Part shown: piece by piece, positions 26,720-45,828 of the stretch | Layout of the letters: each line of letters opens with the position of its first letter | Numbering within the stretch: position 1 is the first letter of the stretch | Origin: Spirosoma sp. SC4-14 | Lineage (GTDB): Bacteria; Bacteroidota; Bacteroidia; Cytophagales; Spirosomataceae | Assembly (NCBI RefSeq): GCF_037201965.1 | Contig: NZ_CP147518.1 | Coordinates: forward strand, 2,231,001 to 2,295,000 | Direction of reading: 5' to 3' | Length of the DNA stretch: 64,000 nt | Position numbers and translations under genes: made by a program | The notes under the pieces: generated by a model | What the model saw: the letters and a program-made list of their open reading frames with translations, nothing else | Databases searched by the model: none | Told to the model about the DNA's origin: nothing

Positions 26720-26725
26720 ATTCAT

Positions 26726-26791
26726 TTAGTCGAGAATATCACCTACTTAGTCTAAACAAATTGTTCGGCCTACCAGAATAGTCTACGTTTG
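26726..26791 (+). promoter_or_regulatory. LytTR operator and promoter, site 1
   Basis: TTAGTCGAG (26726-26734) and TTAGTCTAA (26747-26755) are separated by 12 nt (21-bp period). A perfect TAnnTTTG box, TACGTTTG, starts at 26784, 29 nt after the end of the second repeat, and the precursor peptide start is at 26827. Three further copies with the same geometry are described at 30167, 32019 and 45732. Confidence 0.8.
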
Positions 26792-26826
26792 AATGTTCCT
26801 TATTTCTAAACTTAATTTTTTCTATA

Positions 26827-26970
26827 ATGAAAACAGCTACGCACAATTCGCTCACACCAACACTCAATAAAAAACGAGTGCATCACCTTACCAAATCTGC
26901 TCATCAGACAACCAACCCTAAACGATCTACGACTATAACCGGAACAGGAACAATCGCCACAAGCTTTTAG
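26827..26970 (+). CDS. Candidate lanthipeptide-type precursor without cysteine, 47 aa
   Basis: A small ORF just ahead of lanB. It reads MKTATHNSLTPTLNKKRV... and ends ITGTGTIATSF. The N-terminal half carries TLNKKRVHHLTK, which resembles the L-x-L-x-K-K-x-x-x-x-L leader of Bacteroidota class I lanthipeptides. The C-terminal half is rich in Thr/Ser (STTITGTGTIATS, nine hydroxyl residues in 13) and has no cysteine, so lanthionine rings cannot form. It lies between a LytTR promoter and an attenuator-like hairpin, both consistent with a precursor gene. It has no double-glycine site. Confidence 0.75.
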   Translation: MKTATHNSLTPTLNKKRVHHLTKSAHQTTNPKRSTTITGTGTIATSF

Positions 26971-26986
26971 TAGGACAATGGTTTGC

Positions 26987-27021
26987 AAATCACACCGGAT
27001 TTAAATCTGGTGTGATTTTTT
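26987..27021 (+). terminator. Attenuator-like hairpin between precursor and lanB
   Basis: AAATCACACCGGATTT (26987-27002) pairs with 27003-27018, the sixteen pairs including one G-U, followed by a T-rich tract. In lanthipeptide operons a weak terminator between precursor and modifying enzyme keeps the precursor more abundant; this position (16 bp after the precursor stop, 23 bp before the lanB start) fits that use. Confidence 0.8.
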
Positions 27022-27040
27022 ATTCTTTCAATACGCGAGT

Positions 27041-30000
27041 ATGATTAGTATAGCATCTAGTTTTTATCTACTCCGCCTTCCTGCTCTTCCTTTTCAATCC
27101 GTAAAAGTGGAGGCTATCGCCACCTCTTTACAACATCTATGGGAAACTACAATTCTGGCCGAAGCCGTGTTTGTTGCCTCCCCCGAGCTATATCAGCAAG
27201 TTAGTAACCATATTTCTTTAAAAGGCTGGCCACTCTCCAATGCGCTGTTCCATTCGTTGGTAAAATATGCGCTGCGGATGAGCAGCCGAGCTACCCCTTT
27301 CGGTCTGATGTCAGGCTTCTCGGTAGGTCAATTAGCCGAATCAACCCGGGTCAGCATCAATTCAGAACAAGTCGTTGTTCGACACCAACGGCTCGATATG
27401 GATTGCATGGCGGGCTTGATTCGGCACATTAACAGCGATATTACGATAAAAAAACAACTCCTTTTTTTCCCGAACAACAGTCGCTATACCGTTGGCGACG
27501 AACTCCGCTACACCGAACGGGACGATACAGGCTTAAGCCGCCACTACTTTATTAGCTCGGTTAGCCAAACGGACTATTTAACCGATTTACTACAACGAAC
27601 GGAAACCGGAGCATCCCTGGAACACCTGGCCTGCCTGCTCAAGCAGGCAGGCGCTCCCTATCAAACAGCCCGTGCCTTTGTTGATGAACTCGTCGATAGT
27701 CAATTGCTGGTAAGTGAACTAGAGCCAATGCTTACAGGTCCTTCCATGATCTGCCGGTTACGCGAACGTCTTGCTCAACTACGGGGAAGTCATTCTCTTG
27801 TAAATAGATTGAGCCAGATTGAACACCTCCTCAGTTCGACAACGGCTGACTCAAGAGACGTTTACCAATCTGTAGAGAATCTAATAGCTGGCTATACAGG
27901 ATCAACTGTACCTCAGCGGCTTATTCAAACTGACACATCATTGAATACACCTGACAATCAGATTAGTCAGAACGTTATTCAGACGATTCTTAGCCAACTG
28001 GCAGAGCTAAAAGACGTAAACCAATCATCTGTCACTACACAGCTCACCGACTTTAGCCGACGCTTTCGGGAACGATACGATCAGCAGGAAATTCCCCTAC
28101 AACTGGCGCTGGATAGTGATTTTGGTATTGGTTACGGCAACTCATCGGGCGATCAGGCTAACTATACTCCTCTCTTAGATTCATTAACGATTCCTCCTGC
28201 CAATTCGCCGACCCAGTTTCTTTTAGGGCCTTATGAACAATTGGTGCTGAGCAAGTTCAGCCAGGCTTTAAGAGCGAATGAACCCGTCATAGTACTAACA
28301 GCCGATGATCTGATTCCATTAGAGGGTTCAGGCGTTCCGTTTGCCAGTAGTTTTTATGTTTTAGGCAATCTCCTCAGTGCATCGGCTGCAAATCTGGACC
28401 GTGGCGATTTTCAATTCAATATACTATCTGCTGAGGGCCCTTCGGCCGCTAACCTTCTGGGGCGGTTCTGCGCTCACTCGCCAGAGCTAACCAACCAGGT
28501 AAAACGCTTGCTCAAGCGCGAAGAAGAAGAACAACTCGATGCAATTTTTGCCGAAATAATTCACTGGCCAGATGATAGGCTGGGAAACATTCTGGTGCGC
28601 CCTGTTCTTCGTGACTATGAGATTCCCTATATCAGCCAGGCTTCGGTAGACAAAGACCATCAAATACCACTCGATGATTTACTGCTTTCAGTACAGGCAG
28701 ATGGCCGATTAGTATTACGCTCGAAGCGATATGGGAAAGAAATTATTCCCCGATTATCGACAGCTCACAATTACCACACAGGCTTAAGTACGTATCAATT
28801 TTTGGCAGATTTGCAGCGGCAAAATCAGGCAACGCACCTTGGCTGGCAGTGGGGGGCCTTAGATAATCAGCCATTTTTACCCCGAGTTACATACAAAAAT
28901 CTTATCCTGTCGCGCGCACGCTGGATACTTCGCCAGCACACCCTGCCAACGAATTCGCTCAACGAATTTATAGCGCATCTGTCCATACACTATAAGCTTC
29001 CCAAATGGATTGCGATTGCTGACGGAGATAATGAATTGGTGCTTGATTTAGAGTCGCTTATCGGACAGCAGTTGTTATTGGACGAATACCGTCGGCGATC
29101 TCCGTTACGAATTATAGAATGGGTGGCTACTCCCGACCAATGTTGGATAGCCACCAAAGACGGCTCCTACGTAAACGAGCTGGTTATTCCGTGTGAAACC
29201 AGAACAACGCCAGCTCCTTTATTTAATCAAAACAGATTTTCAACGGCCTGGGGCGCGGCTGAACCTGATTCCTTTTCCTACACTCGTTCCTTTGACCTAG
29301 GCAGCGAATGGCTCTACGTAAAACTCTATATGGGCGTACAGCCAGCCGATGACTTGCTAAAAACAGTAATCGGGCCATTTATTGAACAACTAAAAGCCCA
29401 AAACCAGATCGAACTTTTCTTTTTTATTCGCTATGCAGATCCTGATACGCATCTACGTCTGCGTTTTTATAGTACGCGTCCTCAATTTTATACCTCTGTT
29501 CTCGAACAGCTTTATCAACTCCTGGCACCTTACCGACAATCAGGGGTTATTTATCGGGTACAAACCGATACCTATGAGCGGGAAATAGAACGCTACGGCG
29601 CTAGTGCGATCGTCGATAGTGAGCAATTATTCGACGTCGATAGCCAGGCAATTCTGGACTATCTGAAGGATGAAATCAGTTTACAGGATCGTTGGCTTTT
29701 TGCCCTTCAAAGCTGCGATGCGTTGCTAAACGATTTTGGATTGAGTATTCAGGCTAAAGTTGGCTTGCTACAGCAGTTACAACGTCAATTTTTAGCCGAA
29801 CACCGAGCCGATAAAACGCTCCGCAAAGAACTGAACGATCGCTACCGAAACGACCGGTCTATAATTGATCAGTTACTTTCTGGCGGCTTATCCGAAGGGT
29901 CAAACCTGAATGCCGCATATCTACAGACGCGCTCCCGGCAACTCCAGGCCATTATTGATCGAATTAAGGGCAACATCCAGAATACTAGCCACCAACCAGC

Positions 30001-30139
30001 AGAATATTCGCTAATTGCCAGTTATCTGCATATGAGTTTGAATCGCCTGTTTATTTCCCAGCAACGCACGCACGAGATGGTTATTTATCATTTTCTGGCT
30101 CGATATTATGAGTCACAACAGGCTCGGCAATGCCGCTAA
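27041..30139 (+). CDS. lanB: Lantibiotic dehydratase, full length
   Basis: Dehydrates Ser/Thr in a precursor peptide, using glutamyl-tRNA. 1032 aa, so glutamylation and elimination parts are on one chain. The N-terminal domain holds YALRMSSRATPFGLMSGFSVG, the LanB signature; ALDSDFGIGYG and the middle strands belong to the same domain; the C-terminal thiopeptide/SpaB_C domain (about 750-1025) has WLYVKLYMG, IGPFIEQL, FFIRYADPDTHLRLRF. No lanC cyclase gene was found in the window. The likely substrate is the Cys-free peptide at 26827. Confidence 0.93.
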   Translation: MISIASSFYLLRLPALPFQSVKVEAIATSLQHLWETTILAEAVFVASPELYQQVSNHISLKGWPLSNALFHSLVKYALRMSSRATPFGLMSGFSVGQLAESTRVSINSEQVVVRHQRLDMDCMAGLIRHINSDITIKKQLLFFPNNSRYTVGDELRYTERDDTGLSRHYFISSVSQTDYLTDLLQRTETGASLEHLACLLKQAGAPYQTARAFVDELVDSQLLVSELEPMLTGPSMICRLRERLAQLRGSHSLVNRLSQIEHLLSSTTADSRDVYQSVENLIAGYTGSTVPQRLIQTDTSLNTPDNQISQNVIQTILSQLAELKDVNQSSVTTQLTDFSRRFRERYDQQEIPLQLALDSDFGIGYGNSSGDQANYTPLLDSLTIPPANSPTQFLLGPYEQLVLSKFSQALRANEPVIVLTADDLIPLEGSGVPFASSFYVLGNLLSASAANLDRGDFQFNILSAEGPSAANLLGRFCAHSPELTNQVKRLLKREEEEQLDAIFAEIIHWPDDRLGNILVRPVLRDYEIPYISQASVDKDHQIPLDDLLLSVQADGRLVLRSKRYGKEIIPRLSTAHNYHTGLSTYQFLADLQRQNQATHLGWQWGALDNQPFLPRVTYKNLILSRARWILRQHTLPTNSLNEFIAHLSIHYKLPKWIAIADGDNELVLDLESLIGQQLLLDEYRRRSPLRIIEWVATPDQCWIATKDGSYVNELVIPCETRTTPAPLFNQNRFSTAWGAAEPDSFSYTRSFDLGSEWLYVKLYMGVQPADDLLKTVIGPFIEQLKAQNQIELFFFIRYADPDTHLRLRFYSTRPQFYTSVLEQLYQLLAPYRQSGVIYRVQTDTYEREIERYGASAIVDSEQLFDVDSQAILDYLKDEISLQDRWLFALQSCDALLNDFGLSIQAKVGLLQQLQRQFLAEHRADKTLRKELNDRYRNDRSIIDQLLSGGLSEGSNLNAAYLQTRSRQLQAIIDRIKGNIQNTSHQPAEYSLIASYLHMSLNRLFISQQRTHEMVIYHFLARYYESQQARQCR

Positions 30140-30166
30140 GGACTTATAAACGAGCAGACACCCGCC

Positions 30167-30232
30167 TTTGTCGAGTTGATGGGAACGTTAGTCTAAATTT
30201 TTAAGGAATTCCAATCAGTAGGGCTAAACTTG
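30167..30232 (+). promoter_or_regulatory. LytTR operator and promoter, site 2
   Basis: TTTGTCGAG (30167-30175) and TTAGTCTAA (30188-30196) with N12 between; a -7-like TAAACTTG starts at 30225, again 29 nt after the second repeat. It precedes the precursor at 30263. Confidence 0.8.
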
Positions 30233-30262
30233 TTTCAACAAACACATAACACACCCTTTTCA

Positions 30263-30466
30263 ATGAAATCATTTCTGGAAAAGTTTATGCCAAAGGCAAT
30301 GGCTGATTCAGTCAATCGTAAGCTGCAAAGCAATGAAATCGAACTTTTATCCGACGAGTTATCCTTAAAAGTGCGCGGGGGCGATAAAGATTACTCGCCC
30401 ACATACGAGCATGAAGTAGAAAAACAAAGCAAGTTTACTGATCCTTCTATTCTACTAAGGTTTTAA
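30263..30466 (+). CDS. Double-glycine RiPP precursor, 67 aa
   Basis: Starts MKSFLEKFMPKAMADSVNRK (ATG 30263; an upstream ATG at 30230 adds 11 residues and is less likely). The leader ends DELSLKVRGG at residues 39-40, a double-glycine site for a C39 peptidase exporter. The 27-residue core begins DKDYSPTYEHE and ends TDPSILLRF; it is rich in aromatic and charged residues, with no cysteine. It is the first gene of the second LytTR-controlled unit, upstream of a radical SAM enzyme. Confidence 0.72.
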   Translation: MKSFLEKFMPKAMADSVNRKLQSNEIELLSDELSLKVRGGDKDYSPTYEHEVEKQSKFTDPSILLRF

Positions 30467-30585
30467 CAGTTGTTTGAGTGAGCGATTTGACCGCAGCAGG
30501 TATATGCGCAACTACTAATGCTAAACACTTATTAGCGGCATAAGTCTTCTGTCTTTCAAAACCAAAACGTATATACCATATCGTT

Positions 30586-30771
30586 ATGAAGTGGAAAAAT
30601 GTCTTTTCATTACCGAAACGCAAAAAAGTTCGTCGAAAAATCTTGGACCACCTAAGCGAAGCTGATGGCCCAATCGATGCCAATCAGGTAACTGGTGGCA
30701 CTCCATCGACACCCGGACAGCCAGAAGTAGGATGGCTCAAGAGCGAAGCTTCTGGTACGCCAAAAATGTAA
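30586..30771 (+). CDS. Double-glycine RiPP precursor, 61 aa
   Basis: Begins MKWKNVFSLPKRKKVRRKIL; very basic N-terminus. A Gly-Gly site follows NQVT at residues 37-38, leaving a 23-residue core TPSTPGQPEVGWLKSEASGT plus PKM. The core has one Trp in WLKS, a Trp-x-Lys spacing that radical SAM cyclophane synthases can cross-link (inference). Its stop is 14 bp before the start of the radical SAM gene, so the two should be co-translated. The leader length (38) matches the five precursors further downstream. Confidence 0.68.
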   Translation: MKWKNVFSLPKRKKVRRKILDHLSEADGPIDANQVTGGTPSTPGQPEVGWLKSEASGTPKM

Positions 30772-30785
30772 CAATCGGGTTTGAC

Positions 30786-32012
30786 ATGAGAAAGCATCGT
30801 CATCCGCAGATAAAAGGCCTGGTTATTAAGGTAGCCAGTCGATGCAATTTAAATTGCTCCTACTGTTACGTTTACAATCAGGGTGACACTACCTATCAAT
30901 TACAGCCGCGCTTCATGTCGGGCGAAACCGTTTCGTTGCTGCTGAAGCGTGTTGGCGATTATTGCCGAAGGCACCGATCAAGAACATTCCGCTTTATTTT
31001 CCACGGGGGCGAGCCACTGCTCGTCCCCGTTTCGTTTTATTATGAGTTTGTCGGAAAAGTGACTAGCTACCTGCCCACTTACACAACGGTTAGTTATTTT
31101 GTTCAGACGAATGGGGTTTTACTAACCGATCGGTGGTGCCAGGTGCTGGGTGAGCTGAATATCCAGATTGGCATTAGCCTGGATGGAGACCCACAAACCC
31201 ATAATAAATACCGGGTCGACCACAAAGGGCAAGGTTCTTACGAAGCAACCATTCGGGGGCTACGCAAAGCCCAGGCTCACAAAGCCGTTCGCTATGAGCC
31301 TGGTATTTTAGTAGTTATAGATCCAGGCAGTGATCCCGCCAGTTTTTTAGAGCAAATGGTCAGGTTAAAGATTAGCTCGCTGAATCTGCTTTTTCCCGAT
31401 GGAACGCACACGAACCGGCCTCCTCATTTACCGCTTCATTCATTAGAAACACCTTATGCAGATTGGCTTGTTCAGGTCTTTGATAAATGGTTGCAACTAC
31501 CGGTATCGGAACGGCCTTCCATTCGTTTATTCCAGCAACTTATCAATCTAATTCTTGGCTTTACGCCAGCCGCTACCGTTGTTGGACGCAAACCGGGTGT
31601 TTTTCTGGTTATTGAAACCGACGGTAGCATTGAAGCTGAAGATTCACTGAAAGTCTGCCAGCCCGGCATTACCAAGGAAGGACAGCATCTACAGACGCAT
31701 ACCCTGGAATCGGCTCTGGCAGCCCCCCTCGTTACCCAATGCGCGCACAGCCGGTCAGCCTTACCAACCAAATGCCTGCCTTGCCCCATTCGAAATGTTT
31801 GCGGAGGAGGGTTTGTCGTACATCGCTACCATCCCGAGAATGGATTCGACAATCCGTCGGTTTATTGCCGGGACTTGCTCAGGCTTATTACCCATATTCA
31901 AACCACAGTGCTGGCTACTTTACCACGCTCGTTAGTAGAAAACTATTCCGTTCGACCGTTGCCGTTCGAACAGGCCCTGGAGATCTTAAGCAAGTCAAAC
32001 AGCGAGAGTTGA
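30786..32012 (+). CDS. Radical SAM/SPASM peptide maturase, FxsB/cyclophane-synthase-like
   Basis: 408 aa. The AdoMet iron-sulfur motif is C20-C24-C27 in KVASRCNLNCSYCYVYNQGD, followed by FIFHGGEPLLVP; the C-terminal SPASM region has CLPCPIRNVCGGGFVVHRYHPENGFDN with a further Cys. The NGFDNPSVYC ending and CSYCYVYN start match the FxsB/GrrM-type group that forms C-C bonds between aromatic and aliphatic side chains. The ATG at 30786 is preferred: the earlier start at 30732 lies inside the precursor gene. Acts most likely on the precursors at 30263 and/or 30586. Confidence 0.88.
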   Translation: MRKHRHPQIKGLVIKVASRCNLNCSYCYVYNQGDTTYQLQPRFMSGETVSLLLKRVGDYCRRHRSRTFRFIFHGGEPLLVPVSFYYEFVGKVTSYLPTYTTVSYFVQTNGVLLTDRWCQVLGELNIQIGISLDGDPQTHNKYRVDHKGQGSYEATIRGLRKAQAHKAVRYEPGILVVIDPGSDPASFLEQMVRLKISSLNLLFPDGTHTNRPPHLPLHSLETPYADWLVQVFDKWLQLPVSERPSIRLFQQLINLILGFTPAATVVGRKPGVFLVIETDGSIEAEDSLKVCQPGITKEGQHLQTHTLESALAAPLVTQCAHSRSALPTKCLPCPIRNVCGGGFVVHRYHPENGFDNPSVYCRDLLRLITHIQTTVLATLPRSLVENYSVRPLPFEQALEILSKSNSES

Positions 32013-32018
32013 TTCGAA

Positions 32019-32084
32019 TTTGTCGAGTATATCGAAAGCTTGGTCTAAAGAATTTTTGGATTGCTACGATAGCCTGCATCTTTC
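32019..32084 (+). promoter_or_regulatory. LytTR operator and promoter, site 3
   Basis: TTTGTCGAG (32019-32027) and TTGGTCTAA (32040-32048) with N12 between. At the fixed 29-nt offset the -7 position (32077) reads CATCTTTC, a weaker box than at the other sites. It lies 7 bp after the radical SAM stop and upstream of the five tandem precursors. Confidence 0.72.
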
Positions 32085-32090
32085 ACTTGT

Positions 32091-32139
32091 TAAACACATG
32101 CGCTGCCTATAAGGCGCCACAAGCGGCCTAATGTGTTTA
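32091..32139. promoter_or_regulatory. Leader hairpin before the precursor array
   Basis: TAAACACAT (32091-32099) pairs with ATGTGTTTA (32131-32139); the 31-nt loop holds a second short stem (GCC/GGC). It lies in the transcript leader just before the first of the five precursors, where it could stabilise the mRNA or act in control. No poly-T follows, so a terminator is unlikely. Confidence 0.45.
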
Positions 32140-32167
32140 TAGTCAGTTCACTTTAATTCCTAAAACA

Positions 32168-32362
32168 ATGGCAAGTAAATCATTGAAACAGATTGTAAAT
32201 CAACTGAAAAGCAGTGATCCTGAGACAACCGAAGGCTTTTCTGAGCTTACGCCTGAAGAAGCCGAAGAACTGGCCGGTGGGCTAACCGACATTGGCCTGA
32301 ACGGAGCCTGCGGCAACAAAGGTTGCCCAACAACCAACACCAGTTGTGGGCAGTCGCAGTAG
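32168..32362 (+). CDS. Cys-rich double-glycine precursor 1 (64 aa)
   Basis: Leader of 38 residues starting MASKSLKQIVNQL and ending FSELTPEEAEELAGG. The 26-residue core contains NGACGNKGCPTTNTSC, cysteines at 48, 53 and 60, and a Pro after the second Cys. First of five tandem paralogues between two radical SAM genes. The core is Asn/Gly/Thr-rich and hence open to dehydration, cross-linking, hydroxylation or glycosylation by the enzymes in the cluster. Confidence 0.88.
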   Translation: MASKSLKQIVNQLKSSDPETTEGFSELTPEEAEELAGGLTDIGLNGACGNKGCPTTNTSCGQSQ

Positions 32363-32413
32363 CATACACGCTGTTTCAGAGCATTTCTTCACAATTTATT
32401 TTATCTCAAAAAC

Positions 32414-32596
32414 ATGGCTACTAAATCGTTAGACAAAATCCTGAACCAACTCCCCGCCAGCGAGGGCGAAGAAACAGAAGGATTCTCGGAAATCAGCCCC
32501 GAAGAAGCCGAAGAACTGGCTGGTGGCCTGACCGATATAGGTGTTAATGGCGCCTGTGGCAACAAAGGCTGCCCCATATCAAACTCAGGCTGTTAG
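32414..32596 (+). CDS. Cys-rich double-glycine precursor 2 (60 aa)
   Basis: Same plan as precursor 1: 38-residue leader (MATKSLDKILNQLPASE), Gly-Gly site, then a 22-residue core with NGACGNKGCPISNSGC, cysteines at 48, 53 and 60. It ends exactly at the third Cys. The leader is almost identical to that of precursor 3 while the core differs at two or three positions, as expected for selection for core diversity. Confidence 0.88.
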   Translation: MATKSLDKILNQLPASEGEETEGFSEISPEEAEELAGGLTDIGVNGACGNKGCPISNSGC

Positions 32597-32710
32597 CGAT
32601 CGGGATAGTGACTTATACGATCGGGTATAGCAGAACTTGACTAGTCAAGCACCCTATCGGCCTACCAGCACGCAGCGTTTATTCATTCTATTTTATTTTT
32701 AAACCAGATT

Positions 32711-32896
32711 ATGGCTACTAAATCGTTAGACAAAATCCTGAATCAGCTACCAGGCAACGAAGGCGAGGAAACGGAAGGGTTCTCAGAAATCACTCCTGAA
32801 GAAGCCGAAGAATTATCGGGGGGGCTTTCCGACATTGATGTTAATGGTGCCTGCGGCAACAGAGGATGCCCGGTGTCAAATACAGGATGTAAATAA
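32711..32896 (+). CDS. Cys-rich double-glycine precursor 3 (61 aa)
   Basis: Leader MATKSLDKILNQLPGNE ... EELSGG (38 residues), then a core with DIDVNGACGNRGCPVSNTGC and a final Lys. Cysteines at 48, 53 and 60. It differs from precursor 2 mainly by Lys to Arg and by IDV for IGV. The upstream gap (32597-32710) carries no gene. Confidence 0.88.
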   Translation: MATKSLDKILNQLPGNEGEETEGFSEITPEEAEELSGGLSDIDVNGACGNRGCPVSNTGCK

Positions 32897-33027
32897 GGGT
32901 ACTCACCAACGACTGGGTTCGGGTTAAGCAGCCCATATTCCCCTACAGGTATGCAAATTCAGGGAAATTAATCTGACCACCCTTGTTCAACTTTCCCAAT
33001 CAACCACAATTCAACCAGTAAAAAAAC

Positions 33028-33219
33028 ATGGCTACTAAATCGTTAAAACAAGTCCTGAACCAGTTGACCAGTAAAGACGGCTCTGAAAGCGAAGGCTTCT
33101 CAGAACTATCGCCCGAAGAAGCCGAAGAACTGGCTGGCGGCCTAACCGATATTGGTGTTAATGGTGCCTGCGGTAACAAAGGCTGCCCAACCACTAACTC
33201 AAGTTGCGGTAAATCGTAA
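33028..33219 (+). CDS. Cys-rich double-glycine precursor 4 (63 aa)
   Basis: Leader MATKSLKQVLNQLTSKDGSE ... EELAGG (38 residues), core NGACGNKGCPTTNSSCGKS with cysteines at 48, 53 and 60. Its core is closest to precursor 1. A hairpin follows at 33226. The conserved EGFSELSPEEAEELAGG leader end shows it is exported by the same C39 transporter. Confidence 0.88.
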   Translation: MATKSLKQVLNQLTSKDGSESEGFSELSPEEAEELAGGLTDIGVNGACGNKGCPTTNSSCGKS

Positions 33220-33225
33220 AGTTCC

Positions 33226-33264
33226 CTGCGCCATGCGGGGCAAGCCTGTACTCGTATGGCGCAG
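33226..33264. terminator. Hairpin after precursor 4
   Basis: CTGCGCCAT (33226-33234) pairs perfectly with ATGGCGCAG (33256-33264), 21-nt loop. It follows the stop of precursor 4 by 7 bp and could serve as processing or partial termination site. No clear T-tract. Confidence 0.5.
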
Positions 33265-33351
33265 CCCTTATATCCTGCTAAAGCAGGAATCTATCCTCCA
33301 GCATACGATTTTCTTTCCCTAAAAAAATAACAAATCATCTGTCATATCGCC

Positions 33352-33531
33352 ATGACCAATAAATCTCTGGAAAACGCTATTAAACAAGTAGGCCAATCGT
33401 CCGCCGAAGAAACGGAAGGATTCTCAGAAATTACTCCCGAAGAAGCCGACGAACTAGCCGGAGGATACAGTGGTGAAAAAAATACGGGCTGTCCTGTGTA
33501 TAACACGGGTTGCCCCAGTCCTGCCGCTTAA
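33352..33531 (+). CDS. Cys-rich double-glycine precursor 5, divergent core (59 aa)
   Basis: A short ORF (59 aa). Leader MTNKSLENAIKQVGQSS ... EEADELAGG is again exactly 38 residues, but the core differs: YSGEKNTGCPVYNTGCPSPA, with only two cysteines, each followed by Pro. The ACGN block of the other four is missing. It lies 82 bp before the second radical SAM gene. The two Cys-Pro pairs make it the best test case for a prolyl hydroxylase. Confidence 0.83.
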   Translation: MTNKSLENAIKQVGQSSAEETEGFSEITPEEADELAGGYSGEKNTGCPVYNTGCPSPAA

Positions 33532-33612: not shown

Positions 33613-34974
33613 ATGAACTTCAAACGATCACACTATTTGGTCATCACCGATCCTATATCGGATACGATTCCTAAACGAATGTTATTAGCAACCCGTACGG
33701 CCCGAACCCTCGTAATCAACGAATCGCTCCATACGAAACTACAAAACGAGGATTGGGACGAAATGAATGACAATGACTTTGACAAACTGCGTCAGATCGA
33801 AGCTATTGTACCAGCAAATGAAAATGAATTACAAACCATTATTGGCCGGAACAAAGCCGCAGTAGCCGATGGGAATACCTTATATCATGTTATTCAGCCA
33901 ACGGCAATGTGCCAGTTAGGATGCGGCTACTGCGGCCAAAAACATACTAAAGACTACGTCGGGGCCGCATCGTCAGAGTTGATCCTGGAACGTATCGAGA
34001 GCAAATTTTCGCTCAAGAATTACAGGCATGTCGAAATTGCCTGGTTCGGTGGGGAGCCGCTCATGGCCTATGCTCAAATTCGCGAACTGACGCCTAAACT
34101 TAAAGCACTAGCCAGGCAATATAATTGCACCTATAGTGCCAAGCTGGTCACCAATGGCTTAAGTTTAAAGGAGCCTATTTTCCTGGATCTGGTCCAGAAA
34201 TATGGTGTTAATTCAATAGAAGTGACGTTAGACGGTACTGCCGAATACCACGACGCCCGGCGGCATACGAAAGAAGGGCTTTCAACATTCAACCTCATTT
34301 TCCAGAATCTGGTAAAGATTTACAATCGTTCTGATTTCAAAGAGTTGGCCTGCCCGATTTCCATACGGTGTAATGTCGACGAACGTAATAATGAGAGTGT
34401 TGTTCCGCTCATCAAATTACTAGCCAAGCACAATTTGCAGGACAAAATTGCTTATTTCTACGTAGCGCCGATTCATGCCTGGGGCAACGATGCTCATAAA
34501 CTTTCGTTGGAAAAACAGGTTTTTGCTGAGCAGGAAATTGACTGGATTGTCGAGCAATTTAAACACGGTTTTACTCCCTCCCTATTACCCGGTCTGAATC
34601 CGGTGGTTTGCCTGTCGGTGACGCCCGACGCCGAGGTTTTCGACGCTTTTGGTAACGTGTTTGACTGCACAGAGGTGCCTTATGTGGAAAGTTATGAAGG
34701 AACAGAATATGTACTGGGGAATATCAACAACGGCTTAAACTCCTTATCAAAACACCGCACCCTATTGAGTTTCAATGATGAAATAATGGACGGAAAATAC
34801 CCCTGTACGTCATGCCAGATGCTGCCCGTATGTGGCGGAAGCTGTCCCAAATCGTGGCGGGAAGGTATGGCCGCCTGTCCAACCAATAAATTCAATATCA
34901 AAGACAAGTTGCTGATGCATTATGCCATTAAAAAGAGTGGCAAGGAAGAGTTTGTTGCCATGATTGCCGACTAA
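33613..34974 (+). CDS. Radical SAM/SPASM peptide maturase
   Basis: 453 aa. A ~90-residue N-terminal region with no cysteines (possibly a leader-binding RRE-like part) precedes the AdoMet motif C100-C104-C107 in QPTAMCQLGCGYCGQ, then FGGEPLMAYA. The C-terminal SPASM part contains CTSCQMLPVCGGSCPKSW and a later Cys. This is a different subfamily from the enzyme at 30786. Its position right after the five Cys-rich precursors makes them its likely substrates, possibly forming thioether (sactipeptide-type) or C-C links (inference). Confidence 0.88.
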   Translation: MNFKRSHYLVITDPISDTIPKRMLLATRTARTLVINESLHTKLQNEDWDEMNDNDFDKLRQIEAIVPANENELQTIIGRNKAAVADGNTLYHVIQPTAMCQLGCGYCGQKHTKDYVGAASSELILERIESKFSLKNYRHVEIAWFGGEPLMAYAQIRELTPKLKALARQYNCTYSAKLVTNGLSLKEPIFLDLVQKYGVNSIEVTLDGTAEYHDARRHTKEGLSTFNLIFQNLVKIYNRSDFKELACPISIRCNVDERNNESVVPLIKLLAKHNLQDKIAYFYVAPIHAWGNDAHKLSLEKQVFAEQEIDWIVEQFKHGFTPSLLPGLNPVVCLSVTPDAEVFDAFGNVFDCTEVPYVESYEGTEYVLGNINNGLNSLSKHRTLLSFNDEIMDGKYPCTSCQMLPVCGGSCPKSWREGMAACPTNKFNIKDKLLMHYAIKKSGKEEFVAMIAD

Positions 34975-38801: not shown

Positions 38802-39824
38802 ATGGAATCAACACTCGTTTATTCGCCCGTTCAATGCCCCAATGTGCTTGCATTACAACAGTTTGTGCAAGCGCTCTGTGGCTCCGTTAACCGTAGTCTC
38901 GTTCGCTCGGCTGTTGAACAACTTCCTCGCTTTCCGATTGTATCACTCAATGATATTAACAAATTGCTCCAGTCTTGGCAAATAGACACTACTCTCTTCA
39001 AAGCACAGTCATCGCTACTGGCCAAACTTGAGGGGCCTTTACTGGGGCACTGCATCTGGCCCGATGGCGATCGGTATTTCGTCGTTATTCACAACGTTGA
39101 ATCTGGTCTGATTCATTATTTCTCTCCTTTCCGGGGCGAAATAGCCGAACCACTGGAAAGCTTTGAACAGCATTGGAGCGGAGCCTTACTCGTAGCGGCT
39201 GCGGATCTTAATCTGCTTACGAACCTGGTTGAGTCAGACGATCAGGAATCCATAGCCGCAGCGATCTATCAACAGAACAACGTTCGCCTGTTCGATCATT
39301 TCTTTACGGATGACGAATGTGATTTTATCGTTCAATATGCCGAACATGATCAGTTATTTGAACCAAGTCTTGTCGAATATACGGATAATCAAAGCACTTT
39401 ATCGGAATCGAGAACCAGCTATTCGGCCTTTCTAAAAGATCGCACGAATCCGGTTTTTCAATCCATCTACGAAAAAGTAGCAGCCGTGCTGGATGTCAGT
39501 GATCAGTACATCGAACATCTCCAGTGCGTTCGCTATGGTCAGGCCCAGCAGTTTAAACCCCATTTCGACTCGGGCGATACCAACCATCGGATCCATACAC
39601 TGCTGGTTTACCTGAACGATGATTTTGAAGGCGGAGAAACGTTTTTTCCTGAACTGAACCTAAAAGTGCAGCCTCAGAAAGGCCGGGCGCTTTATTTCCT
39701 GAATCGGGATGAAGACGACGCCGTTTTGCTCTATTCGGCTCACGCTGGCCTTCCTGTAGATCAGGGCGTTAAATATGCCTGCAATATCTGGGTGCGCAAT
39801 CGCCCGATTCCCATTCGCTCATAA
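38802..39824 (+). CDS. Pseudo-C39 domain fused to prolyl 4-hydroxylase
   Basis: 340 aa, two domains. Residues 160-335 are a 2-oxoglutarate/Fe(II) prolyl 4-hydroxylase: H254 and D256 in FKPHFDSGDTNHRIH, distal H314 in YSAHAGLPV and K324 in GVKYACNIWVR, with FEGGETFFPEL. Residues 1-140 resemble a C39 peptidase domain: GHCIWPDGDRYFVVIHNV lines up with the CILHWNQEHFVVLYDV of the exporter at 42666, but the catalytic His is Tyr 92 and the DP pair is Ser-Pro 108-109, so it should bind leaders without cutting them. It would therefore hydroxylate prolines of leader-bearing precursors, all five of which carry Cys-Pro. Domain identity of the N-terminus is by eye and less certain than the hydroxylase. 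Confidence 0.8.
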   Translation: MESTLVYSPVQCPNVLALQQFVQALCGSVNRSLVRSAVEQLPRFPIVSLNDINKLLQSWQIDTTLFKAQSSLLAKLEGPLLGHCIWPDGDRYFVVIHNVESGLIHYFSPFRGEIAEPLESFEQHWSGALLVAAADLNLLTNLVESDDQESIAAAIYQQNNVRLFDHFFTDDECDFIVQYAEHDQLFEPSLVEYTDNQSTLSESRTSYSAFLKDRTNPVFQSIYEKVAAVLDVSDQYIEHLQCVRYGQAQQFKPHFDSGDTNHRIHTLLVYLNDDFEGGETFFPELNLKVQPQKGRALYFLNRDEDDAVLLYSAHAGLPVDQGVKYACNIWVRNRPIPIRS

Positions 39825-39852
39825 GCCAGGTGTCTTAATCCCTTAAAATGCC

Positions 39853-40617
39853 ATGAACACATCACTATTCAGTCAGTTTGTAGTCAGCCTTGCTGTAGGA
39901 ATCTGGTCTTGTCTTATCAATCCATACGAATTGGTTTCTATTGCAGAATCCAACCTCGCCAAAGAGGTCGATAGCACACGGGCGTTTTCTGTCCAGCCCT
40001 TCGAGCGAATCAAAATAACCGACGCATTTATTGTCAACATAAAATCGGGAGAGCAATTTACGGTCAATGCAACGGGTAGTTCCAGCGACATAAATAGGCT
40101 GGATGTACGTACTAAAAAAGGGTTGTTAACGATTACGTATAAACCTGTTGCTGCCTCTAAAAAAGAGGAAGATGTTATCATTAATCATGAATGGGTCAAT
40201 ATTACGGTTACGCTTCCAGTGCTTAAGGAAGCAACATTTGAAAAAGCGTCGAAATTCAACATCGACGGCTTTGGCCGATTAGGCTCAGTAGAATTGTTTG
40301 CCAACTCATTAGCCAGCGGTACAGCTACTCTTAAGGCTGAACGACTTAAACTCAACCTCCAAAGCCATGCTGCTGTAACGTTGCTTGGGGAGACCTCGTA
40401 CCTTGATGCCGATCTGCAAGGCCAGTCGGAATTAACGGCTGGTGGTTTCAAAACCAGGCAGGCAATGCTGGCTGTAAATGGCATGAGCAAAGCCAATGTC
40501 TTTGTCAGTGATAAGCTCCAGGCAACGGCCAGCGGATCGAGCACAATCTACTATCAGGGTAAGCCAGAGACCACCCTTGCTCAAAATGACTTTAGCCAGA
40601 TTCGGGAATACCGGTAG
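39853..40617 (+). CDS. GIN-domain secreted protein (DUF2807)
   Basis: 254 aa. N-terminal hydrophobic signal (FVVSLAVGIWSCLINP), then a GIN/DUF2807 beta-helix: RAFSVQPFERIKITDAFIVNIKSG starts the domain, and repeated strand runs (ATFEKASKFNIDGFG, SLASGTATLKAERLKLNLQ, ASGSSTIYYQGKPE) follow. Common in Bacteroidota, proposed to be extracellular adhesin-like. It sits 28 bp after the hydroxylase gene in the operon; a role in immunity or surface display is possible but not shown. Confidence 0.85.
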   Translation: MNTSLFSQFVVSLAVGIWSCLINPYELVSIAESNLAKEVDSTRAFSVQPFERIKITDAFIVNIKSGEQFTVNATGSSSDINRLDVRTKKGLLTITYKPVAASKKEEDVIINHEWVNITVTLPVLKEATFEKASKFNIDGFGRLGSVELFANSLASGTATLKAERLKLNLQSHAAVTLLGETSYLDADLQGQSELTAGGFKTRQAMLAVNGMSKANVFVSDKLQATASGSSTIYYQGKPETTLAQNDFSQIREYR

Positions 40618-41702: not shown

Positions 41703-41758
41703 TCTGTCGCGAACGCTTCTGATGCATTGTGAAGGCAACCCATATATTATTCAACCCT

Positions 41759-42583
41759 ATGCAGGACTCTCCTCTGATTTCGTGCCTTTGTGTTACTCAT
41801 AACAAACCCGAATTACTGAAACGGGCCATCCGCTGTTTTCAGCGTCAGAGTTATCCGCATAAAGAACTAATTATTGTTTACGAAGACGGCGACATGGCCT
41901 CGCACAATCTGGCCATGTCCATTCAGTCGGATACCATTCGTCCTGTTATGATCACCAACCAGCCTAAGCTGACATTGGGCCAGCTACGGAATATTGCGGT
42001 CGATGTCTGCAAAGGCGACTATTTCTGTCAATGGGACGACGACGACTGGTATCACCCACTACGAATTGAGTTGCAATGGCAGGCCATTCGTCGGAGCAAT
42101 AAACCCGCCAGCGCCCTCACCTACTGGCTAATGTTCGATACATTAACCGGTGATGCTTACTGTTCCCATCATCGGATTTGGGAAGGCAGCATTCTGTGTA
42201 AAACCGACATAGCCTGCACCACAATCCGGTACCCGGATTTTGAGAAAGGCGAAGACAATCTGTTCATCCATCAACTGTATACTACCTACGGCATATGTCA
42301 TTTGCCGCTTCCGTTTCTCTATATATATACCTACAATGGGCGCAATACCTGGGGTTATGACCACTTTATTAGCCTTTTCGAAAAGGCCAATAAGTTGTCT
42401 CGTTATAGCTCAGAAATTATACGGCAGACCCTGGATGAGTCTCAACCTGATTCATTACTAAAAGATGATAAGTTGTTAGATGAAATAGAGCATGTAATTT
42501 TCAGGAATCACCTGCCATCATTTCCTCCGGTTTCAGACCCCGGCTCTTCCTTTAGGCGGTTTGGCAGTGCCGGCGAATCCTGA
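41759..42583 (+). CDS. Glycosyltransferase family 2
   Basis: About 274 aa. The GT-A fold starts SPLISCLCVTHNKPELLKRAIRCFQRQSYPHKELIIVYEDGD, and the nucleotide-sugar motif is the run DDDDW in FCQWDDDDWYHP. The ATG at 41759 is chosen over an upstream GTG at 41729. Second glycosyltransferase of the operon; SunS-type peptide S-glycosyltransferases also belong to family GT2, which makes peptide glycosylation a fair hypothesis. Confidence 0.85.
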   Translation: MQDSPLISCLCVTHNKPELLKRAIRCFQRQSYPHKELIIVYEDGDMASHNLAMSIQSDTIRPVMITNQPKLTLGQLRNIAVDVCKGDYFCQWDDDDWYHPLRIELQWQAIRRSNKPASALTYWLMFDTLTGDAYCSHHRIWEGSILCKTDIACTTIRYPDFEKGEDNLFIHQLYTTYGICHLPLPFLYIYTYNGRNTWGYDHFISLFEKANKLSRYSSEIIRQTLDESQPDSLLKDDKLLDEIEHVIFRNHLPSFPPVSDPGSSFRRFGSAGES

Positions 42584-42665
42584 AAATGGCCTGCCTCAGA
42601 AGCTTAATTTCTCCAGCCATTTCTAATCAACGATTACACGTTTGTTCTAAATCCAGCCTATCGTT

Positions 42666-44981
42666 ATGGTCTCCCGGTATAAATACTTTCGTCAGCTCGA
42701 TTTTATGGACTGCGGACCTACCTGTCTAAAAATGGTAGCCGCGCATTATGGCAAAGACTATTCGCTGGATTACCTTCGAGCCAACTCCTATATTACCCGT
42801 TCGGGCGTTAGTTTATTGGGAATCAGTGATGCCGCCGAACGCATTGGCTTCAAAACCCTTAAAGCCAAACTTTCGTACCGGCAACTGACTGAAGAAGCGC
42901 CCCTGCCCTGTATTTTACACTGGAATCAGGAGCACTTTGTAGTTCTATACGACGTTCGAAAGACCGGCTGGAACTGGTTGCCGGGCCGAAAACAGAAATC
43001 GGCGGATCGGCTGGTCATTGGCGACCCCGGCCACGCACTCGTAACGGTCGACAAAGACACGTTTATGAAATGCTGGTCGGGCACGGCCGACGAAAAGGGC
43101 ATTAGTTTACTGCTTGAGCCAACCCCCGAATTTTATCAGTTAAAGGAAGAAACGCAGCAACGTTCTACCGGATTTCATTTTCTGTTCGAATACCTCACCC
43201 CCTACAAACGCTACATTACGCAGGTGCTGCTGGGCATGCTTATCGCCAGCATTGTGAGCATGGTATTTCCGTTTCTTACCCAAAGTCTGGTCGATTATGG
43301 AATTCATCGCCATAATCTGAATTTCATCCACCTGATTTTACTATCGCAACTCCTGTTGTTTATTGGCAACATTGCCGTCGATCTGATTCGTAACTGGATT
43401 CTGCTTCATATCAGTACCCGCGTCAGCGTTACCATTATTTCGAATTTTCTGGTGAAGCTGATGAAACTGCCTATCAATTTTTTCGAATCGAAAAACATAG
43501 GCGACATTTCGCAACGCATTCAGGATCATCACCGAATCGAAACATTTCTGACCGGTGCTACCTTAAACACACTTTTTTCGGTTGTCAACCTGCTTATTTT
43601 CTCCATTGTATTAGGCACCTATAGCGGTCAGCTATTAGGTATTTTTGTTATCGGCAGTGTCATTTCCATCGGCTGGATTACCATATTCCTGAATCAGCGA
43701 AAAGATCTGGATTACCGGCGTTTTCAGCGAATGCGCGAAAATCAAAACACGATATACGAACTGATTACGGGCATGCAGGAAATTAAACTGAACAACTGCG
43801 AAAAAGCCCGGCGTTGGGAATGGGAACGAATTCAGGCCAAACTCTTTAAGATCAATATTAAAGGCCTGGCGCTGGAGCAATATCAGGAAGTAGGCTCTTC
43901 GTTTGTTACGCAACTGAAAAATATACTGATTTCCTACATTGCTGCCACCCTGGTTATCGACAATCAGATTACACTCGGTGTTATGCTGAGTATCTCCTAC
44001 ATCATTGGGCAAATGAATGGTCCACTGAGTCAGTTGATGTCGTTTATGCGGAGCATTCAGGATGCCAAAATCAGTTTAGACCGGCTGGGCGAAGTTCATA
44101 ATAAACCCGACGAAGAACTGGATGAGGAGCGGTTGTTAAGCCGGCCAATTGCGTTATCGCCCGATGGCCCATCGGTGATTTCGGAAGGATACTTCGACGA
44201 CGACCGCATCTCGGCCGTTTATGGTCATCCGCATCAAAACCGGGGCATTAATTTGCGAAACGTATCGTTCCGTTATGGAGGGCCCAATTCTACGCTTGTT
44301 CTCAACGACTTAACACTTCACATTCCTGAAGGCAAGGTTACTGCCATTGTTGGTACAAGTGGCAGTGGTAAAACAACCTTGCTTAAGCTTCTTCTGAAAT
44401 TTTACCCGCCCGCCAGCGGAGAAATCATTGTGAATGGAAGCAGCCTTACCGACCTGTCGGCCCGCGAATGGCGTAAATCGTGCGGAACGGTAATGCAGGA
44501 TGGCTATATTTTCTCCGACACCATTGCCCGTAACATTGCAGTTGATGGACAAAAGATTGATGAAGATCGGTTATGGGATGCCGTTCGGGTTGCCAACCTG
44601 CAGGACTATCTGCGCAAAATTCCGCTCGGGTTTACTACAAAAATTGGTAACTCCGGCGCTGGTTTAAGTGGTGGACAACGACAGCGGATTTTTATTGCCA
44701 GAGCCGTCTACAAAAATCCGTCCTACATTTTTTTTGATGAAGCCACCAGTGCTCTCGATGCCAACAACGAGCGAATTATTATGGACAATCTGGACCAGTT
44801 TTTCAAAGGAAGAACGGTTGTTGTGATTGCCCACCGGCTCAGCACGGTTAAAAATGCCGATCAGATTATTGTACTCGATCATGGCCAGATTAAGGAAGTA
44901 GGTAATCATAGCCAGTTGACTGCCCGCCGAGGATTTTATTACGAATTAGTAAAGAATCAGTTAGAACTAGCCGACGCTTAA
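42666..44981 (+). CDS. C39-peptidase ABC exporter (bacteriocin type)
   Basis: 771 aa, bifunctional: cuts leader peptides after Gly-Gly and exports the core. The C39 peptidase (1-150) has catalytic C16 in FMDCGPTC, H90 in NQEHFVVLYDV and D120 in VIGDPGH. The membrane domain follows (about 165-460, six segments), then the ATPase: Walker A GTSGSGKTT, Q-loop, LSGGQRQRIFIARA and IFFDEATSALD. It is the only exporter in the cluster and matches the double-glycine sites of seven precursors. Confidence 0.95.
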   Translation: MVSRYKYFRQLDFMDCGPTCLKMVAAHYGKDYSLDYLRANSYITRSGVSLLGISDAAERIGFKTLKAKLSYRQLTEEAPLPCILHWNQEHFVVLYDVRKTGWNWLPGRKQKSADRLVIGDPGHALVTVDKDTFMKCWSGTADEKGISLLLEPTPEFYQLKEETQQRSTGFHFLFEYLTPYKRYITQVLLGMLIASIVSMVFPFLTQSLVDYGIHRHNLNFIHLILLSQLLLFIGNIAVDLIRNWILLHISTRVSVTIISNFLVKLMKLPINFFESKNIGDISQRIQDHHRIETFLTGATLNTLFSVVNLLIFSIVLGTYSGQLLGIFVIGSVISIGWITIFLNQRKDLDYRRFQRMRENQNTIYELITGMQEIKLNNCEKARRWEWERIQAKLFKINIKGLALEQYQEVGSSFVTQLKNILISYIAATLVIDNQITLGVMLSISYIIGQMNGPLSQLMSFMRSIQDAKISLDRLGEVHNKPDEELDEERLLSRPIALSPDGPSVISEGYFDDDRISAVYGHPHQNRGINLRNVSFRYGGPNSTLVLNDLTLHIPEGKVTAIVGTSGSGKTTLLKLLLKFYPPASGEIIVNGSSLTDLSAREWRKSCGTVMQDGYIFSDTIARNIAVDGQKIDEDRLWDAVRVANLQDYLRKIPLGFTTKIGNSGAGLSGGQRQRIFIARAVYKNPSYIFFDEATSALDANNERIIMDNLDQFFKGRTVVVIAHRLSTVKNADQIIVLDHGQIKEVGNHSQLTARRGFYYELVKNQLELADA

Positions 44982-44984
44982 ACT

Positions 44985-45719
44985 ATGCCAGTCGAACGTT
45001 TACAGGGAATTATTAATCGCCACGATACGCACAGTGACGAGATGCAGGAAATCATCGGTCATGTTCCGCATTGGCTTATTCGATGGGGAAATCTGGTTAT
45101 TTTCGTTGTCGTGACGATTTTGATCTTTACTTCCTACACAGTGCGTTATCCCGATATTATTACAGCACAGGCACTGATCAACGCCCGTGAGCAACCGCAG
45201 AAAATTACATGGTTCATTACAGATCCCAATATTACCTACCGGCGGGCCGTAAACGACGCCCAACAGGTTAAAGTTGGCGATACGCTGCTGTCGGAGATTG
45301 ACGGAAATCGAAAAATAATAACCCCTGTGCGGGCCAAAGTTTCGGGTCGCACGTATCTGTTGAAAGGAGTTGACAACAATCCCAAAGCGTTTATGCTGCT
45401 GGTCGTCCCTCCAGTTACGAAATACGAAGTACAACTTAAACTACCCGTAAAGGGAGCTGGGAAAATTCATATCGGTCAGCGTGTACTGATCCGGCTTGAT
45501 GCCTATCCGAGCAACGAGTTTGGTTTTGTTGAAGGAAAAATTGCCAGTATGGTGCCGGTCTCGCTGGATAATCATTATCGGGCCAATGTGACCCTAACGC
45601 ATGGCCTGACAACCAATACGAGCCATACGCTACCCATACAACCGCTCCTACAGGGAACAGCGGAGGTTATGCTGGACGATAAGCGATTATTTGATCGGAT
45701 TTTCAATACCATTTTATAG
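44985..45719 (+). CDS. HlyD-family periplasmic adaptor (short)
   Basis: 244 aa membrane-fusion protein: one N-terminal membrane segment (about 25-48; WGNLVIFVVVTILIFTSYTV), then a short biotinyl-lipoyl/HlyD part (VGDTLLSEIDGNRKIITPVRAKVSGR) and a beta-barrel region (KIHIGQRVLIRLDAYP). It lacks the long alpha-helical hairpin of classical HlyD, so it is a compact version. The start is 3 bp after the exporter stop, indicating a tight pair. Confidence 0.88.
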   Translation: MPVERLQGIINRHDTHSDEMQEIIGHVPHWLIRWGNLVIFVVVTILIFTSYTVRYPDIITAQALINAREQPQKITWFITDPNITYRRAVNDAQQVKVGDTLLSEIDGNRKIITPVRAKVSGRTYLLKGVDNNPKAFMLLVVPPVTKYEVQLKLPVKGAGKIHIGQRVLIRLDAYPSNEFGFVEGKIASMVPVSLDNHYRANVTLTHGLTTNTSHTLPIQPLLQGTAEVMLDDKRLFDRIFNTIL

Positions 45720-45731
45720 GTAATTCAGGAA

Positions 45732-45797
45732 TTAGCCGAGTAAATCGGGTGGTTGGTCTAATTTCTTTACGCCTGAAGCCTGAGTCGATTACTTTTA
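45732..45797 (+). promoter_or_regulatory. LytTR operator and promoter, site 4
   Basis: TTAGCCGAG (45732-45740) and TTGGTCTAA (45753-45761), N12 between; a -7-like TACTTTTA starts at 45790, once more 29 nt after the second repeat. It precedes the receiver-like gene at 45829. Confidence 0.75.
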
Positions 45798-45828
45798 GTC
45801 ATTCACTCAGGGCAATTTTTTAATACAG

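Follow-up and report, generated by a model that had tools for sequence, protein, structure and literature searches.

The 64,000-nucleotide stretch of the Spirosoma sp. SC4-14 genome analysed here (positions 2,231,001-2,295,000 of an 8.1 Mb genome, G000; hereafter the window) carries one conserved locus in which three peptide-modifying modules share a single C39 exporter and are likely switched on jointly by a LytS/LytR pair. Within it, a protein in which a C39-like domain is fused to a prolyl 4-hydroxylase (P4H) is predicted to hold the leader of a precursor peptide and to oxidise proline in its core; for this reading as a whole the probability is put at roughly 60%. At least three types of chemically remodelled peptide are expected from the locus, under one likely shared switch, and the fusion enzyme, with its tie to a glycosyltransferase, appears to be the newest element.

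The locus extends from 24787 to 46218, with all genes on the + strand and no gap larger than 164 bases. The order is LytS-LytR-pL-LanB-pB-pC-rSAM_FxsB-pA1 to pA5-rSAM_C-TPR-TBDR-fusion-DUF2807-GT_A-GT_B-C39ABC-HlyD-RR, a block of 22 adjoining genes; three other genera have most of these as neighbours too. Module 1 consists of pL and LanB, module 2 of pB, pC and rSAM_FxsB, and module 3 of pA1-pA5, rSAM_C, the TPR protein and the fusion; each is opened by its own precursor or precursors and by a LytTR-type direct repeat with a 21-bp period, and one C39 exporter gene is common to all three. A previous sequence-only reading had placed a cluster for ribosomally synthesised and post-translationally modified peptides (RiPPs) at 26720..45800. 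Its content was right, but the locus starts earlier, with LytS/LytR from 24787, and also includes the TPR protein at 35069, the DUF2807 protein at 39853 and the paired repeats. The eight small open reading frames (ORFs) listed there, from 26827 to 33352, are all present, and the double glycine (GG) claimed for seven of them is found after 38 residues in six and after 40 in the one at 30263, with none at 26827. Profile searches bore out the LanB, two radical SAM/SPASM enzymes, P4H fusion, two glycosyltransferases, C39 exporter and TonB-dependent receptor, and the HlyD-like adaptor is a short protein. The features are as follows.

24787..25989, +, LytS-type histidine kinase (PF06580); an orthologue heads the locus in S. 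linguale, Runella, Rhabdobacter and Dyadobacter
25970..26719, +, LytR response regulator with LytTR DNA-binding domain, candidate locus regulator (PF00072, PF04397; 77% to S. linguale)
26726..26755, +, paired direct repeat before pL, LytTR-type, 9 bp with 12-bp spacer, exact TTDGTCKA-N13-TTDGTCKAA
26827..26970, +, pL, Cys-free, Thr-rich putative LanB substrate without Gly-Gly, 47 aa; slot filled in seven LanB loci and in L132 and L133
26987..27018, +, terminator-like hairpin between pL and LanB, 14-bp stem then T-run
27041..30139, +, LanB, full-length lantibiotic dehydratase (PF04738 4-649 of 649, PF14028 1-255 of 255)
30167..30196, +, paired direct repeat before pB, LytTR-type, exact match
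30263..30466, +, pB precursor, 67 aa, 40-aa leader ending GG, core DKDYSPTYEHE...; core start DK[DE][YF] kept in Spirosoma, Runella, Rhabdobacter and G359
30586..30771, +, pC precursor, 38-aa leader ending GG, W-L-K in core
30780..32012, +, rSAM_FxsB, radical SAM/SPASM maturase of the FxsB/YhhB/XyeB cyclophane group by best match (NF041707 332 bits, cut-off 445; TIGR04269 326 bits, cut-off 370)
32019..32048, +, paired direct repeat before pA1, LytTR-type, exact match
32168..32362, +, pA1 precursor, GG after 38 aa, three Cys, GCP
32414..32596, +, pA2 precursor
32711..32896, +, pA3 precursor
33028..33219, +, pA4 precursor
33352..33531, +, pA5 precursor, two Cys, Pro right after each
33613..34974, +, rSAM_C, radical SAM/SPASM maturase nearest TIGR04463 (184 bits, cut-off 525) and CefB (NF038107, 134 bits, cut-off 600); 66-80% in syntenic loci
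35069..36085, +, TPR-like helical protein; AlphaFold2 model all helical, predicted local distance difference test score (pLDDT) 90.6; 10 relatives at E<=1e-5
36250..38688, +, TonB-dependent receptor (TBDR), OMP_b-brl_3 barrel (PF14905, PF13715); 36-65% in syntenic loci
38802..39824, +, C39-like/P4H fusion (PF03412 and PF13640), C39-like at about residues 9-146, P4H at about 155-337
39853..40617, +, DUF2807 head-GIN-domain protein (PF10988); relatives near rSAM_C relatives in L131 and L147
40671..41702, +, glycosyltransferase GT_A (PF13704)
41729..42583, +, glycosyltransferase GT_B (PF00535)
42666..44981, +, C39 peptidase/ABC exporter (PF03412, PF00664, PF00005); 89% to S. linguale
44985..45719, +, HlyD-like adaptor, short, 244 aa, C-terminal part of TIGR01843 only; 68-75% in Runella, Rhabdobacter and S. 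linguale
45732..45761, +, paired direct repeat before RR, LytTR-type, one mismatch; S. linguale counterpart not found
45829..46218, +, RR, small receiver-like protein; orthologue at the locus end in S. linguale, Runella and Rhabdobacter

The start of pB was taken as the inner ATG at 30263 (the mechanical ORF begins at a TTG at 30230), and the mechanical ORF of rSAM_FxsB starts at 30732. RR, for which no Pfam family reached its cut-off, is named from the blastp likeness of its relatives to LytR.

The two halves of the fusion are preserved in different ways. In the P4H half the HxD...H iron triad and the Lys that binds 2-oxoglutarate (2OG) are present in the window's protein and invariant in 46/46 sequences. 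The other half has the C39 fold without the full Cys-His-Asp triad: the position of the protease His is occupied by Tyr in the window's fusion (His in 3/46) and that of the Asp by Ser (Asp in 0/46). As the list of fold matches consists mostly of P4H chains, the C39 assignment rests on two of its rows plus sequence profiles. The company kept by the gene points to peptide modification, since 13 of the 14 other fusion loci hold a LanB, C39 exporter or radical SAM relative in the same stretch (the exception is G096_C39; the 14 are 15 counted sources minus an upstream Rhabdobacter piece that holds no fusion), and precursors with CP, PTPTP or CPP cores occur near the fusion in several of them. GT_A relatives were found in five of these 14 loci, at distances from the fusion of 863 bases in S. 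linguale, 8480 in G040, 1338 in L057 and 13 in G096, and overlapping it in G059, versus 0/31 control loci that have a C39 exporter or rSAM_C and no fusion; the Fisher p of 0.0016 is optimistic, the loci being related by descent and the stretches of unequal length. Both glycosyltransferases are present in S. linguale and were not seen in the Runella and Rhabdobacter loci, and they are judged to be accessory.

The conserved iron and 2OG residues of the fusion, its lost protease residues and its link to GT_A suggest leader-guided hydroxylation followed by glycosylation. The dead C39 domain would hold the precursor leader while the P4H half oxidises a core proline, in pA cores the Pro just after Cys, and where GT_A is present a sugar would be added to the new hydroxyl. 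The C39 exporter would cut at Gly-Gly and export the product with the HlyD-like adaptor; the TonB-dependent receptor might, as a guess, serve as the outer-membrane port or as an immunity or uptake protein. No description of a C39-P4H enzyme in a peptide pathway was found in searches of a collection of open-licence PMC papers.

Further relatives of either half were encountered. A Gly-Gly precursor with a long PTPTPTPTTPTPTP tail lies near a C39-P4H fusion, a GT_A relative and a LanB in G040 (L046, about 1939-2178), and this PTPTPTPTTPTPTP-tailed peptide would be a good test substrate for proline hydroxylation. Plasmids hold P4H-only relatives, none of 17 records covering 80% of the fusion. In Chitinophaga sp. 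G-6-1-13 a P4H relative (P0046), 37% over 89% of the fusion, runs into an alpha/beta hydrolase domain (584 aa). In the window's own genome (L047 9931-11592, G000:C1:1.806 Mb) a C39-like domain heads a 553-aa protein with a membrane and thioredoxin-like part, by eye presumably VKOR-like, and Gly-Gly peptides lie next to it. The C39 half also has blastp matches among the ORFs of L116, L117, L120, L121, L123 and L126.

The pA cores, the proposed substrates of the fusion, contain two to four Cys, and in 21/22 a Pro stands no more than three residues after a Cys, a count that omits the peptides of R. zeae (near-identical to those of MFBS21) and has no chance control. The radical SAM enzyme of this module, rSAM_C, is nearest to the TIGR04463 and CefB (Cys-every-fifth) maturases, although its scores lie far under both cut-offs, and it is predicted to cross-link pA cores at Cys. 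In L131 (Spirosoma G406) two peptides at 6107-6634, with a Cys about every fifth or sixth residue in N-rich, Pro-free cores, have as neighbours a C39 exporter and relatives of rSAM_C (51%) and of the DUF2807 protein; no fusion and no LanB were seen in that stretch. The model of the TPR protein gave no match in the PDB at E<=0.001, the best being TPR solenoids; its role may, at a guess, be that of a scaffold.

In module 2 the best models for rSAM_FxsB are YhhB, FxsB and XyeB, all described as cyclophane-forming; since it scores below the family cut-offs, it is classed as a relative of the FxsB/YhhB-type family rather than a member. Triceptide substrate cores carry a three-residue motif with the aromatic residue first, and W/F-x-K/E is found in the cores of 8/8 pC sequences examined. 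The enzyme would tie Trp to the Lys or Glu two residues on in pC, and may also modify pB. In this it would resemble the triceptide maturases and DarE, for which PMC9055067, in the part available, gives the Lys-Trp bond of darobactin; unlike FxsB, YhhB and XyeB, it lies under every curated cut-off shown and accompanies two precursor families that match no known precursor model.

The pL peptides of module 1 are 39-47 aa long, with no Cys in the last 20 residues in 9/9 and five to eight Ser/Thr in the last 16; Gly-Gly occurs in 1/9, that of Rhabdobacter. Three relatives were scanned with NF038153, the model of class I leaders, whose cut-off is 22 bits: the Rhabdobacter pL scored 19.1 bits and the other two less. 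The window's own pL matched no NCBIfam model. A class I lanthipeptide pathway was considered for this module and rejected, LanB being present with no LanC and no Cys in the pL core. There is no LanC in the locus, and both Runella genomes have one LanB each and no LanC. In a LanC search of eight genomes none was found in G291, G292, G294 and G359, the only LANC_like gene of G000 lies at 5.91 Mb, one is present in G059's own fusion locus, and G293 and G295 gave weak partial matches on other contigs or far away. With no LanC and a Cys-free pL, no lanthionine is expected and a linear dehydropeptide is more likely than a lanthipeptide: LanB would dehydrate Thr and Ser of pL to give a linear dehydrobutyrine peptide. 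Pinensins are reportedly class I lanthipeptides of Bacteroidota. They are named among these in a passage of PMC7268733, which also gives the leader motif LxLxKx5L of Bacteroidetes LanAs, and RuiABC of Runella limosa appears in an excerpt of PMC9993889; the Spirosoma locus is like these systems in its full-length LanB and in the leader motif of some pL relatives, and unlike them in the missing LanC and Cys. The Bacteroidales areas reported in part of PMC10352776, hybrids of radical SAM and LanC genes without LanB, are the reverse case.

A common switch for the three modules is suggested by the paired repeats. LytTR sites have been described as direct repeats of 9-11 nt with spacers of 11-13 nt (sections of PMC4847170 and PMC6193735), and the window has four sites of 9-bp repeats with a 12-bp spacer near a LytTR regulator gene. 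When pairs of 9-bp boxes at a distance of about 21 bp were scanned for, with a threshold of 16/18 and 20 shuffles as control, these four sites, before pL, pB, pA1 and RR, were all on the + strand, none was found on the other strand, and shuffles gave 0.25 each. The gap after LytR holds at least one TTnGTC[TG]A box in each of eight sequences. The first three repeats stand at the same places in S. linguale, where the fourth, before RR, was not found; pL is preceded by a tandem array of the repeat in Runella and by a single site in Rhabdobacter. In Dyadobacter CY261 the sites stand ahead of pL and of pA and behind LanB; those of G359 stand ahead of pL, pC and pB and, at score 15, of pA. Lowering the score to 15/18, which shuffled windows reach about twice each, adds sites in the pB slot of Runella and Rhabdobacter and the pA slot of Rhabdobacter. 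Exact matches in the whole of G000 number five, three in the locus and two at 5.77 Mb in a second LytS-LytR-RR-LanB locus. If one mismatch is tolerated the total rises to eight, versus 14 for a backwards control pattern, and a single one-mismatch site means little by itself. LytR is inferred to bind the paired repeats, and, as the same repeat precedes the first precursor of each module, the three are likely switched on together by LytS/LytR.

Scans for sigma-70 promoters and terminators gave no more sites than shuffles, and a Bacteroidota-type promoter pattern occurred five times on the + and twice on the - strand versus 2.05 per shuffled strand. A precursor produced in larger amount than its enzyme would agree with the hairpin that separates pL from LanB, although the region is no richer in such sites than its shuffles. 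The second peptide locus lies at L143 about 8109-10144 (G000:C1:5766108-5768143), and in L132 (12198-12407) a further Gly-Gly peptide with its own upstream LytTR-type repeat stands between HlyD and a TonB-dependent receptor.

The arrangement is conserved well beyond the window. All four precursor families fill the corresponding slots of S. linguale, of two Runella genomes and of Rhabdobacter, and five genomes from three genera keep them together with the core enzymes. In S. linguale the locus is complete and in the same order, with two pA copies, and Runella zeae, Runella sp. MFBS21 and Rhabdobacter roseus share the order LytSR-pL-LanB-pB-pC-rSAM_FxsB-pA-rSAM_C-TPR-C39ABC-HlyD-TBDR-fusion-RR. 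In Dyadobacter sp. CY261 and G359 the order is LytSR-pL-LanB-...-pA-rSAM_C-TPR-fusion-TBDR-C39ABC-HlyD. Large GT2-type enzymes come next, identified by PF00535 in CY261. rSAM_FxsB was not seen in the CY261 stretch; G359 has a short remnant of it near pC (L085 9113-9484) and an intact relative about 17 kb on, beside a pB, and module 2 may have decayed and been replaced there. A Cytophagaceae metagenome-assembled genome holds parts of the locus on two contigs. Seven precursor genes of the Runella species pair differ at 48 synonymous versus 9 non-synonymous positions, and between the window and S. linguale non-synonymous divergence is below synonymous (pN < pS) for four precursors and four enzymes, with synonymous sites near saturation; to judge by these sequence comparisons, the precursor genes are under purifying selection. 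That the precursors are chance ORFs was rejected, given this selection and the same slots across genera, and the lack of conservation that the sequence-only reading had named as fatal to it did not materialise.

The fusion itself is uncommon, being present in 4/36 genomes of the genus, 10/200 of the family and 5/291 of the order with both domains aligned; in a phylum sample of 395 genomes only the window's own was found. At E<=1e-90 rSAM_C occurs in 12/220 family genomes, and where it is at least 67% identical the fusion is present in 8/8 (seven known from the family search, G901 from the matching coordinates of locus L055). Modules also occur apart. In L132 and L133, from two Spirosoma genomes, pL-pB-pC-rSAM-C39ABC-HlyD is found without pA, rSAM_C or fusion, the fusion being absent elsewhere in these genomes too, and rSAM_C relatives in L147-L149 have no LanB, FxsB-like enzyme or fusion.

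No NCBIfam precursor model reached its cut-off for pA, pB or pC, the Rfam search gave nothing at gathering score, the PHROGs search of pA1 and pL gave nothing, and PADLOC, run on four proteins, returned only generic 2OG and weak viperin-like matches. Just downstream, at 46312-50882, three - strand genes (GH88-like hydrolase, KduI/IolB-family protein, AsnC/Lrp regulator) and after them a + strand gene for an aldehyde dehydrogenase look like genes for sugar-acid use; no tie to the peptide locus was seen.

Several observations speak against parts of the proposed reading. The window's fusion keeps a Cys (C12), possibly that of the triad, near the nucleophile position, as do 15/45 relatives (Cys in 16/46), and in G040 8.5 kb separate the fusion from the GT_A relative, which lies on the opposite strand. 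Among rSAM_C loci without the fusion, L151 and L153 also have Pro in some cores, and Pro alone does not separate the groups. The Pro content of GG cores has a median of 0.083 in nine fusion loci versus 0.052 in 23 others (one-sided p 0.019), a weak difference among loci related by descent, several of the controls being Pro-rich and two, L132 and L133, holding pB relatives of the same system. The rule used found precursors in 9/13 fusion loci and 23/24 controls and missed 2/7 of the window's GG precursors; by presence, Pro is found in 30/30 case rows (of which one is an antisense ORF and two are duplicates, from Rhabdobacter pieces that overlap) versus 31/37 control rows. Pro enrichment in cores is too weak to carry the claim. 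As to module 1, LxLxKx5L is strict in 3/9 pL and incomplete in the window's own, pL of L132 directly precedes pB with no LanB found in the 19 kb read, and the shared exporter may not carry the window's pL, which has no Gly-Gly. In genera other than Spirosoma the repeat is less strong ahead of pB and pA, the strong sites of Runella and Rhabdobacter being only those before pL.

Some of these points lend themselves to other explanations. The C39-like half might only dock to the exporter or still cut, with the P4H half acting on a non-Pro residue or on a protein such as EF-Tu, a kind of target known for other bacterial P4Hs; bacterial P4Hs with EF-Tu in their entry titles are indeed among the fold matches, and the slight Pro enrichment would suit this, but the substituted protease His and Asp, the LanB, C39 exporter or radical SAM relatives near 13 of the 14 other fusions and the CP, PTPTP or CPP cores nearby make it unlikely. 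An equally doubtful proposal is that LanB acts on the Cys-rich pA to form thioether rings while pL is a signal or regulatory peptide of LytS/LytR. It draws on the Ser/Thr and Cys of pA cores, on the position of pL after LytR in every locus read that has pL, and on the L132 pL without a neighbouring LanB; it is opposed by the lack of LanC in the locus and the two Runella genomes, the class I leader signal of some pL relatives with the Thr/Ser-rich tails of all nine, and the L131 rSAM_C relative that stands beside Cys-rich precursors with no LanB in the stretch.

The relation between the modules can also be read in two extreme ways. A single combinatorial assembly line, with enzymes of different modules acting on the same precursors, would agree with the joint presence of four precursor families and core enzymes in five genomes, but it is improbable in view of L132 and L133, of the rSAM_C relatives of L147-L149 and of leaders that differ between precursor families. 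The related suggestion that all modifications fall on single peptides is not supported, pL, module 2 and the exporter occurring without module 3 in two other Spirosoma stretches. At the other end, adjacency of unrelated peptide operons by chance could be argued from modules that occur apart elsewhere, and is very improbable given the same repeat before each module and at the same three places in S. linguale, the single exporter and the order conserved across genera. The separate regulation that would go with unrelated operons was looked for as well, and the units instead carry the same putative regulator site. The reading of one locus with three modules and a leader-holding fusion is retained; of the two forms offered from the sequence, one regulated locus or two to three interleaved pathways with one exporter, the two together fit, chiefly the second, given three modules, their repeats and a single C39 exporter.

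Parts of the proposed chemistry have counterparts elsewhere. The C39-like domain (CLD) of HlyB keeps a substrate-recruiting role according to an excerpt of PMC6363468, and the fusion shares the C39 fold with it and with the LahT/PCAT1 peptidases, without the full catalytic triad; unlike the CLD, the Spirosoma domain is fused to an oxygenase and not to a transporter. Proline hydroxylation in bacterial RiPPs, predicted here, is attributed in PMC13060819 to MibO (a P450) and PesO (alpha-ketoglutarate-HExxH), enzymes of different fold, and the accessible part of that paper names no canonical Fe/2OG prolyl hydroxylase for a RiPP. Hydroxylation by a P4H and then glycosylation is the two-step logic of plant peptide hormones with hydroxyproline (Hyp)-O-glycosylation (PMC11253845, in part); the Spirosoma system differs in being bacterial and, by prediction, leader-guided, and its glycosylation is inferred. 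A wider proposal, tentative and rather less probable than the reading above, is a Cytophagales class of cross-linked, hydroxyproline-glycosylated RiPPs, in which a dead protease is the leader handle of a collagen/plant-type P4H and a dedicated glycosyltransferase caps the hydroxyl, a bacterial counterpart of the plant hormones; under one LytTR switch, a cyclophane peptide and a dehydropeptide made by LanB alone would be produced jointly with it.

If the proposed mechanism holds, the consequences reach beyond this strain. With the paired repeat, co-regulated peptide genes can be sought across genomes of the family of Spirosoma, and a LanB acting on Cys-free peptides in the absence of LanC would allow the idea of linear dehydropeptides to be tested. 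For peptide engineering, a canonical prolyl 4-hydroxylase guided by leaders would be useful. RiPP recognition element (RRE) domains are the substrate finder of many RiPP tailoring enzymes (from a portion of PMC7470986); a dead C39 leader handle carried by an oxygenase would give enzymes a further route to Gly-Gly leaders, and, as a C39-like domain also heads the L047 protein beside Gly-Gly peptides, it may be a general adaptor.

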